From an uncultured Pseudomonadota bacterium (GTDB taxonomy: Bacteria > Pseudomonadota > Alphaproteobacteria > RF32 > CAG-239): a stretch of DNA of 59,191 nucleotides. The translations under genes and the position numbers were made by a program. The stretch lies in assembly GCA_949295085.1 (NCBI GenBank), contig CASFJS010000017.1:1-59191 (forward strand). Reading direction: 5' to 3'. Within the stretch, counting starts at the first letter, position 1. Each line of letters opens with the position of its first letter. A model generated the notes under the pieces. The model saw only the letters and a program-made list of their open reading frames with translations, had not been told where the DNA came from and ran no database searches. This document shows positions 1-25,231 of this stretch, piece by piece.

Positions 1-413
1 GGCGCCTCAGACAAACATATTGACAAGGCTTATCAATCTGACTCCGGCATTGCAAAACCTAATCGCTCGCATTCCCGGACCCTGTTAATTGTTCTTTGGA
101 TATGAGGCTATGTGCTTAAGGGAAGATCCTTCGCTGCGCTCAGGATGACGTATCCAAGTCATTCTGAGGAACAACAGCGACGAAGAATCTCATCTGTCAT
201 CGCCTGAGCGAATGTAGTGAGCGAGGTCAGCGATCTTCCGATTATGTTAAAACAGTTGAAGACCCCTTAGCCTCGGGAAGAATACTTCCCGAGGCGGGGT
301 GACATGGTTGGTTGCAGGAATGCTTGGCAAGGCGGCACGACAGTCTTTTTTTACCATCGCTTGTTTTCGTTTATTAAGCCAAACTTTAGCTCCGACATTT
401 TCCTTATTACAAT
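1..413. repeat. Dispersed palindromic repeat block, no gene
   Basis: No convincing gene lies here. Bases 1-108 are open in frame 1 up to a TGA at 106-108, so the tail of a gene entering from the left is possible but unproven. Bases 118-300 hold intergenic repeat modules: a CCTTCGCTGCGCTCAGG unit (near 128), a CATTCTGAGGA...CGACGAAGAATC unit (near 160-189), a TCGCCTGAGC...GCGAGGTCAGCGATC unit (near 200-237), and a perfect hairpin CCTCGGGAAG/CTTCCCGAGG (271-280/285-294) flanked by CCCTTAG and CGGGGTGACATGG. Related modules recur at 17030-17330 and 58800-59070. Confidence 0.7.
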
Positions 414-23689: not shown

Positions 23690-24514
23690 TCAGACAAATG
23701 ATGATAGATGTTTGATAAAGCTGACAGGGTAGCCTTCGTCCGTACTTATCGGTTCATATTGTTGCAAAAATTTATTAAAACAATCTTCATCTATGAAAAG
23801 CTCTTCTGCATTGTCACGCGACCTTTTCAAAGTGCGTTTTTTGGCAATATCCATATCGCAAAGCACGGCACAAAACCGGATATTCGGCGTCAATTTCTTT
23901 GCCCATTGAAAATATTCCGTACGTTTTTCCCTGCTCCAAAAACCATAATCCAAAATAACATTTTGGCCTGATTTGACGGCCTTGGCGGCTTCCCGACGGA
24001 TAAAATTATCTACTTCCCGATAGCGGCGTTCAAAATTGTCCGGTGTGCGACCGTATTTTTGCAGCATGATTTCATCGTGGGTAAATCGAACCGCCGGAAG
24101 TTCTGATTCTAATTTTTTAGCCAGCGTCGTTTTGCCAAATCCCAGAAAGCCACACATCAGATAAATATCCGGCTGAGGATGAACAAGAAGATGTTGAAAC
24201 CATTTTTCCTGAAATTCGGTTTGTTTTTCAATTTCATCGTCTGATAAAGACAGGTGCTTAGGGGCAATCACAAGCTTGTCATCGTTATCATCCAAACGGT
24301 GTATAACGGCAATGCATTTTCCCTCAAACTCCGATACCGGATGGTTTATCCCTAAGATATAAGCATCCAGTTCTTCACCATCGTCAGAAACGGTATTGGG
24401 CACATATCCGTAATTAACCGGATAAACAAAACCGTGTTTGGGGTGGACAGATCCCAAAGGGCGGTCTGTTTTTATCTTAACGATTTTGCCGAGATATTGC
24501 TGCGGAACAAACAT
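23690..24514 (-). CDS. Fusion of inorganic pyrophosphatase-like domain and P-loop (AAA_33/zeta-like) kinase
   Basis: About 274 residues from the ATG at 24514 (GGAGAG upstream). Residues 1-100 match family I inorganic pyrophosphatase: KTDRPLGSVHPKHGFVYPVNYGYVPN, DGEELDAYILG (the catalytic Asp cluster) and LDDNDDKLVIAP (segments quoted in part). From about residue 118 comes a P-loop ATPase: MCGFLGFGKTTLAKKL (Walker A), FTHDEIML, and VILDYGFWSREKR, the layout of zeta-toxin/AAA_33 small-molecule kinases. It follows the NMN adenylyltransferase gene by 14 bp, and that enzyme releases PPi, which the first domain could hydrolyse. The kinase substrate is unknown; a nicotinamide riboside or other nucleoside kinase is a reasonable guess. 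Confidence 0.87.
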   Translation of the reverse strand: MFVPQQYLGKIVKIKTDRPLGSVHPKHGFVYPVNYGYVPNTVSDDGEELDAYILGINHPVSEFEGKCIAVIHRLDDNDDKLVIAPKHLSLSDDEIEKQTEFQEKWFQHLLVHPQPDIYLMCGFLGFGKTTLAKKLESELPAVRFTHDEIMLQKYGRTPDNFERRYREVDNFIRREAAKAVKSGQNVILDYGFWSREKRTEYFQWAKKLTPNIRFCAVLCDMDIAKKRTLKRSRDNAEELFIDEDCFNKFLQQYEPISTDEGYPVSFIKHLSSFV

Positions 24515-24528
24515 TTTTCTCTCCGTCT

Positions 24529-25074
24529 TTATTTTAGACAGCTTTTTTTGTGATTGAAATATTCCTCCACAATATGCCGGTTTTCTGAATGGATATAATT
24601 CTTCCAACGCTCGTCGCCAAATTTTATCATATCGCGAATCATTGAACCGCTGACAAACGGAAACGACGGATCGGTACGATCTACCAGTTCAATATGGTCA
24701 AAATATTCTTTAAACCAGTGGGCATCGTACAAACTGCCGGCGTAGTAGACATCCGGCCGCGGCAATGATGGAAAAGTTTCGCCGATAAAATCAAGAACAT
24801 ATTCGCCCCACTCTGCCGGATTATTGATATCAAAAAGGCCGATAATTCTTAATCGTTCGTATTCCGGTCTGGAGCGATAAATGTTTTGAATCATTTTTTT
24901 GCGCGTGGTGTAATTGAACGGATTGCGCGGTGTTCCCCGCTCCTGTATTGAGCCTAAAACAATGGTTACTCTTTCACAGTCCGTCAACATACGGTCAATC
25001 AGCTTGGCATGGCCAATATGAAAAGGCTGTGCCCGCATAACAGTTAAACCGTGTCGGTATTTAAAATCAGACAT
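24529..25074 (-). CDS. NadM-type nicotinamide-nucleotide adenylyltransferase
   Basis: 181 residues. A nucleotidyltransferase Rossmann fold with the HxGH motif in TVMRAQPFHIGHAKLIDRML (quoted in part as PFHIGHAKLI), then VTIVLGSIQERGTPRNPF, TTRKKMI, and the C-terminal substrate motif VSGSMIRDMIKFGDERWKNY, which corresponds to the SGTxIR signature. This is the pattern of archaeal-type NMN adenylyltransferases (NMN + ATP to NAD + PPi). Other cytidylyltransferase-like activities cannot be excluded. Its leader is long and structured (25075-25205) with a terminator hairpin overlapping the ribosome-binding site. The next gene adds pyrophosphatase and kinase domains. Confidence 0.85.
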   Translation of the reverse strand: MSDFKYRHGLTVMRAQPFHIGHAKLIDRMLTDCERVTIVLGSIQERGTPRNPFNYTTRKKMIQNIYRSRPEYERLRIIGLFDINNPAEWGEYVLDFIGETFPSLPRPDVYYAGSLYDAHWFKEYFDHIELVDRTDPSFPFVSGSMIRDMIKFGDERWKNYIHSENRHIVEEYFNHKKSCLK

Positions 25075-25206
25075 AAAAAAACTCCTTTATCAAGGAGCCG
25101 GCAGATAAAAAAGAAAAGACTTTCCTTTGTAACAACCTGGCTCGGGTTAATGTTCTCTGCTTATAAGCCCTGCAAGCACCAAGAACAATTTTAGGATAGC
25201 GGCTTT
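25075..25206 (-). promoter_or_regulatory. Riboswitch-like structured leader of the NMN adenylyltransferase gene
   Basis: Read on the minus strand: -10-like TATACC at 25207-25212; then a possible three-way junction closed by TCCT/AGGA (near 25192 and 25121); a long arm with GTTCTT/GAGAAC and inner TGCTT/AAGCA; a short arm AACC/GGTT; and finally CTCCTT-GATA-AAGGAG followed by seven T and directly by the ATG. The last hairpin is both an intrinsic terminator and a trap for the AAGGAG ribosome-binding site. AAGGA of the closing stem can also pair with TCCTT of the terminator, giving a switch. Parts of the 3' half (ACCC...CCAGGTT...AGGAAAG) faintly recall the TPP aptamer, but CUGAGA and GCG are absent, so I do not assign a class. 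Confidence 0.6.
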
Positions 25207-25231
25207 GGTATAAAAATCAAGCAAAAAAATC

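Follow-up and report, generated by a model that had tools for sequence, protein, structure and literature searches.

The nadM locus and the NAD supply of its genome

In the window, that is, the whole 59,191-nt stretch of DNA analysed, the minus strand carries nadM, which encodes an archaeal NadM-type NMN/NaMN adenylyltransferase. The next gene of the operon encodes a fusion of an inorganic pyrophosphatase domain with an AAA_33 (P-loop kinase-like) domain (Table 1). The first-pass annotation had called the nadM product an NMN adenylyltransferase, and the profile searches agree: NadM scored 31.6 bits with Pfam PF01467 (CTP_transf-like; cut-off 21), matched PRK01153 and TIGR01527 of NCBIfam at E 1e-14, which is below their cut-offs, and has the NMN adenylyltransferases 2qjo and 1ej2 as its best relatives in the PDB.

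Three other CTP_transf matches in the genome are, by our reading of their sequences, a PEP-mutase-type enzyme, a CoaD-like fusion and a glycerol-3-phosphate cytidylyltransferase-like protein. As these three read otherwise and no nadD was seen, the nadM of the window is the sole candidate for the adenylyltransferase step. The genome has nadE; NAPRTase/NAMPT and QPRTase were looked for in it and not found, and NadM may be fed by a riboside or nucleotide route. The pyrophosphatase/AAA_33 fusion stands where relatives have a second RNA element (E2) followed by pncA, pncB and nadE, and it could both drive the adenylylation in the forward direction and provide NMN or NaMN.

Table 1. Features of the nadM locus, in positions of the window.
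Feature	Coordinates	Strand	Remarks
Promoter-like sequence	25193..25220	-	-35 TTGATT 25215-25220, -10 TATCCT 25193-25198, 16-nt spacer; from sequence
Leader of nadM	25186-25075	-	with a combined terminator and Shine-Dalgarno-trap hairpin at its end
E1 putative aptamer hairpin (P1, bulged G, P2, loop)	25152..25186	-	covariation in 48 distinct leaders
P1	25181-25186 / 25152-25157	-	GUUCUU/GAGAAC; part of E1 hairpin
P2	25174-25178 / 25158-25162	-	UGCUU/AAGCA; part of E1 hairpin; conserved bulged G
P2 loop, 11 nt	25163-25173	-	GCAGGGCUUAU; part of E1 hairpin
P3 hairpin	25134..25148	-	AACC/GGUU, loop CGAGCCA; double changes in 4/4 pairs across E1 leaders
Switching strand GAGCC	25139..25143	-	two possible pairings: pseudoknot with GGCUU 25165-25169 in the P2 loop; antiterminator with GGCUC 25095-25099
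GGCUC, antiterminator partner	25095..25099	-	overlaps 5' arm of terminator
Intrinsic terminator CUCCUU-GAUA-AAGGAG-U7	25075..25097	-	CTCCTT 25092-25097, AAGGAG 25082-25087, seven T 25075-25081; 3' arm doubles as Shine-Dalgarno; from sequence
nadM (181 aa)	24532..25074	-	ATG at 25074; motifs MRAQPFHIGH and SGSMIRD
Pyrophosphatase/AAA_33 fusion	23690..24514	-	next operon gene after nadM

One hairpin as terminator and Shine-Dalgarno trap

From the likeness of the upstream sequence to a promoter, transcription in the window would start at or near P1, close to position 25186. The arrangement TTGA[CT]-16..19-TANNNT is found directly 5' of P1 in 35 of 53 relatives. At the other end of the leader, CTCCTT-GATA-AAGGAG, seven T and the ATG follow each other on the minus strand just as first described. 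The hairpin CUCCUU/AAGGAG with its U7 run is an intrinsic-terminator attenuator, and its 3' arm is the Shine-Dalgarno sequence, 7 nt from the start codon in the window, so that the proposal of a single hairpin acting as both terminator and Shine-Dalgarno trap holds. In 44 of 45 leaders, GGAG and ATG are separated by 7-9 nt. Read by eye, the terminator arms change together in one main-operon leader (L119; CUCUUUC/GAAAGGG) and in leaders of a paralogous operon (CCUUU/AAAGG).

The folding energy of the leader taken singly is no better than chance (-32.7 kcal/mol versus a shuffled mean of -32.95 kcal/mol, z 0.06), and single-sequence folding was set aside as uninformative. Because of this, one sequence alone is insufficient for a riboswitch claim, and comparative conservation carries the case.

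The leader fold is conserved upstream of nadM orthologues

The leader was recovered by DNA similarity 5' of nadM orthologues, which are present in 80 of the 152 genomes of the family; a species-level genome collection gave 55 loci, whose titles are those of gut and rumen Alphaproteobacteria. The genomes surveyed are mostly metagenome bins. The repeated pattern opens with P1 (GUUCY..RGAAC), a bulge whose last nucleotide is a conserved G, P2 and the loop GNAGGGCUUAU; P3 (AAAC-YGAGCCR-GUUU) comes after a short linker, and GGCUCC..GGAG-U7-AUG after a second linker, which is variable. The conserved fold consists of two hairpins, one bulged and one small (P3), whose loops are able to kiss; the three-way junction of the first-pass annotation is not conserved. 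Likewise, the alternative pairing of AAGGA with the TCCTT of the terminator did not hold up, as just 8 of 45 leaders have an AAGGA in the stretch from P3 to the terminator.

Across 48 distinct leaders with this element (hereafter E1), double changes were found in 10 of the 11 P1/P2 pairs and, with P3 included, in 14 of 15 pairs; 96.9% of the cells are paired, compared with at most 51% in slid controls. These counts come from hand-registered, linker-free alignments (compressed A3 and A4, with a few rows placed by hand) of sequences that are kin, and paired cells are not equivalent to independent events. RNAalifold returned P1 and P2 without guidance for the E1 set and also for the set of E2 copies described below. 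The initial proposal of a riboswitch-like leader had been staked beforehand on covariation and conservation among homologous leaders, and both were found.

A covariance model built from 44 E1 leaders and no E2 (R1) placed E1 before nadM in 54 of the 152 family genomes at E <= 4e-12; its next tier comprised 36 matches (E <= 0.006) immediately 3' of nadM, which are the E2 copies. A model built from E2 only (R2) in turn recovered E1 copies at E 6e-8 to 5e-3. All these E-values are rough, being based on a shortened calibration. As the E1-only model finds E2 and the E2-only model finds E1, the same fold was found independently. Among 385 genomes sampled from the class, R1 matched this family plus a single genome from a different one (G182; E 8.5e-6, 5' of nadM); two weak matches elsewhere in this sample were judged to be chance. 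Weak R1 or R2 matches outside the nadM region (G031, G107, G057, G115, G068, G140, G007, G240 and G244) had no conserved loop by eye. Several nadM orthologues of the family (groups g14, g6 and part of g1; some divergent) have no leader, and the leader is therefore not required for nadM. In the viral collection, neither model gave anything significant among the matches listed for loose patterns, and the NadM of the window has no relative there; no sign of a phage origin emerged.

In the leaders of L094-L111, the linker that joins P3 to the terminator holds insertions as long as about 180 nt, with the ends GATAAATTTATCTAGCTGGCAAC ... CTATCTAAATTTATC. They resemble a miniature inverted-repeat element and leave the aptamer and the terminator undisturbed.

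A second copy precedes pncA in the operon of relatives

The layout of the operon in relatives is [E1]-nadM-[E2]-pncA-pncB-nadE. The genes in a row encode NadM, an isochorismatase-domain protein, which we read as PncA, a nicotinate phosphoribosyltransferase (TIGR01513, 453 bits) and NAD synthase (NadE; TIGR00552, 200 bits), and this row is the Preiss-Handler salvage route. E2 lies directly 3' of nadM and before the PncA-like gene in most relatives. In some relatives E2 is missing and nadM is followed at once by nadE or pncB, and in the genome of the window only E1 was found when E2 was looked for.

E2 is composed of the same bulged hairpin and loop, followed by AACCY-n-AUAAGCC-n-RGG-AUG. In the E2 alignment, made in the same way, 97.0% of the cells are paired and 15 of 22 pairs show double changes. 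The pseudoknot between GGCUUAU of the loop and AUAAGCC, counted separately, is paired in 94.6% of the cells, with double changes in four of seven pairs (25 cells) and at most 40% pairing in slid controls. Within the main operon it is rewritten as GGCCUAU/AUAGGCC in L090 and likewise in L100, which has one further loop change.

A fixed attenuator with a Shine-Dalgarno hairpin, or a temperature-responsive hairpin, setting a low basal expression would account for the complete terminator and Shine-Dalgarno hairpins of the window and for the unremarkable minimum free energy of its leader. It would leave unexplained the covarying distal hairpin, the invariance of the bulged G and the retention of the 11-nt loop twice per operon with different platforms, and we regard such an unregulated structure as quite improbable.

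GAGCC has two possible partners

The GAGCC of the P3 loop and its two partners, the P2 loop and the GGCTC of the terminator, make up what is, as judged from sequence, a conserved switch. Both pairings are retained in nearly all E1 leaders, yet are almost invariant. As the E1 pseudoknot, the antiterminator and the terminator hardly vary, the support for them is conservation, not covariation; the pseudoknot GGCUU/GAGCC of E1 is proposed from this conservation and by analogy with E2. The expression platform consists of mutually exclusive folds, GAGCC/GGCUC versus CUCCUU/AAGGAG. For the window, the forced antiterminator fold amounted to -29.4 kcal/mol and the terminator plus P3 to -26.7 kcal/mol with the pseudoknot left out of the count, a distance of 2.7 kcal/mol. 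In folds of the growing transcript, the antiterminator appears before the 3' arm of the terminator exists. An optional sixth antiterminator pair is intact in most relatives; three leaders show a joint change of G-C to A-U, and ten cannot form the pair, among them that of the window, which has an A-C mismatch.

In the proposed mechanism, the ligand would stabilize the pseudoknot between the P2 and P3 loops. In E1 this would occupy GAGCC and release GGCUC, whereupon the CUCCUU/AAGGAG-U7 hairpin would form, stop transcription and hide the Shine-Dalgarno sequence. When no ligand is bound, GAGCC would pair with GGCUC and nadM would be expressed. In E2, ligand binding would close a P3 formed by CCY and the Shine-Dalgarno RGG, and translation would be blocked. 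The platform of E1, a terminator, and that of E2, a stem hiding the Shine-Dalgarno sequence, both predict an OFF switch, as would be expected of feedback on a salvage pathway; to this extent the OFF logic suggested at the outset stands, with other pairing partners.

The motif has no match among Rfam families

We consider it probable, at about 0.7, that the leader represents an uncatalogued riboswitch class, for which we use the working name nadM-pncA motif, sensing NAD+ or a close metabolite of the NAD pathway and shutting off NAD salvage. At E <= 10, the leader matched nothing in Rfam 15 except three families far below their cut-offs. These matches, the L10 leader (16 bits, cut-off 44), PGK and CRISPR-DR, were rejected as chance. 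Over the window Rfam 15 found two tRNAs only, and over eight relative loci no regulatory family above cut-off. A weak likeness to TPP riboswitches had been suspected earlier; the TPP model (RF00059) had no match in the leader at E <= 10, and its best score in the genome, elsewhere than the leader, was 17.6 bits versus the 54.3 needed. TPP riboswitches have in common with the motif the control of coenzyme genes and the terminator and Shine-Dalgarno platforms.

The NAD-I riboswitch (nadA motif) comprises two neighbouring domains within a single UTR, each with a ACANCCCC bulge (PMC7297122), and the core of NAD-II (pnuC motif) is ACACGG, accompanied by an A-rich strand (PMC10085692). The leader contains neither the ACANCCCC bulge in a stem-loop nor the ACACGG core or an A-rich strand before the ribosome-binding site, in line with the earlier remark that it is unlike the published NAD riboswitches. 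With NAD-I, the nadM-pncA motif shares NAD biosynthesis genes and two similar aptamer domains, but its bulge is one or two nucleotides ending in G, and E1 and E2 precede different genes rather than lying adjacent in one UTR. The likeness to NAD-II (PMC7749635; PMC10085692) includes NAD-pathway genes, with pnuC also present in the paralogous operon described below, a pseudoknot able to hide the Shine-Dalgarno sequence and an OFF switch. In contrast to NAD-II, which is found in Streptococcus and Haemophilus, the nadM-pncA motif occurs in Alphaproteobacteria, combines a bulged hairpin, its loop 11 nt long, with a distinct P3 hairpin, and in one copy type (E1) uses a terminator. A diverged TPP, NAD-I or NAD-II riboswitch might be considered because the pathway is that of NAD-I and NAD-II and a TPP likeness had been noted, but the missing Rfam match, the absent hallmarks, including the A-rich triplex strand, and the different topology make it very improbable. 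On this sequence comparison, the motif appears to work like a NAD-responsive OFF switch and belongs to neither NAD-I nor NAD-II. It also resembles a known UTR with two aptamer classes, in which two sensors of one ligand per transcript are proposed to give transcriptional and translational control, but it repeats one aptamer at two gene starts in the operon.

E1 and the pncA-proximal element might instead be sites for a regulatory protein that attenuates by feedback, comparable to ribosomal-protein leaders, with no metabolite involved. Conserved loops and bulges can serve proteins, and all known copies lie in NAD-salvage operons, where autoregulation would be possible. We find this unlikely: the weak L10-leader match, being chance, lends it nothing, the aptamer core is kept although the genes that follow differ (nadM, pncA-like, F420-ligase-like), and a loop-loop pseudoknot with a bulged G and switching strands would be typical of small-molecule aptamers.

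Candidate ligands and a paralogous PnuC operon

Copies of the element stand in the 5' regions of the genes of one pathway (nadM, pncA-like, pncB and nadE, and the nadM2/pnuC operon). The gene row in relatives argues for a ligand within the NAD pathway, as had been supposed for the leader. The nadM2/pnuC operon is a paralogous one, found in six genomes (L222-L227; G005, G006, G008, G009, G039 and G078), with genes for nadM2, an F420-ligase-like protein, an unknown protein, PnuC (above the NCBIfam cut-off in L223), a deoxyribosyltransferase-like (NDT-like) protein and a radical SAM protein, not all of them everywhere. In all six genomes, a diverged E1 lies 5' and a diverged E2 lies 3' of nadM2; these copies are matched weakly, R2 recovering the E2 in five of the six and R1 the E1 in three. 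Their loop sequence differs from that of the main operon, and the E2 pseudoknot is rewritten from GGCUUAU/AUAAGCC to GACAGU/ACUGUC or, elsewhere, GGCAGU/ACUGCC. The RNAs of the paralogous operon are possibly a variant class with an altered ligand.

Since the leader is kept in a genome in which NAPRTase/NAMPT and QPRTase were not found, and which may use a riboside or nucleotide route, nicotinate and nicotinamide are unlikely ligands and NAD+ is the simplest common one. A riboswitch of the same new class could still respond to a pathway intermediate (NMN, NaMN, NR or nicotinate) rather than NAD+. Such an intermediate is realistic, as the affinity of NAD-II for NMN is about three-fold higher than that for NAD+ (PMC10085692), and the different loop in the PnuC operon may reflect altered specificity. 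Nevertheless, the metabolite common to the Preiss-Handler and PnuC operons is NAD+, and for nicotinate the enzyme inventory of the window genome speaks against it; we hold an intermediate as ligand to be a tentative option, at clearly less than even odds. Returning to NAD+, the more specific proposal of a third structural class of NAD+ riboswitch, occurring twice per operon with different platforms and with a PnuC-operon variant of changed specificity (e.g. from NAD+ to NMN or NR), is at this stage speculative.

The literature searched describes two NAD+ riboswitch classes, both rare, and no NMNAT-associated or third NAD riboswitch was found in it (most subscription journals lie outside its coverage). 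That NAD+ riboswitches should be so scarce, given how central the coenzyme is, has been called puzzling (PMC7749635). A third class, if true, would make the discrimination of NAD+ from its precursors by RNA testable through its covariation-backed pseudoknot, two platforms and variant set, and would show how NAD salvage is controlled in a large, uncultured group of gut Alphaproteobacteria.

In one of the six paralogous loci (L224, G078; reverse complement, about 1180-1240), the gene behind the paralogous E2 seems truncated, with a stop following MAEFSQNTYLTIINFSKI; the RNA element itself is complete.
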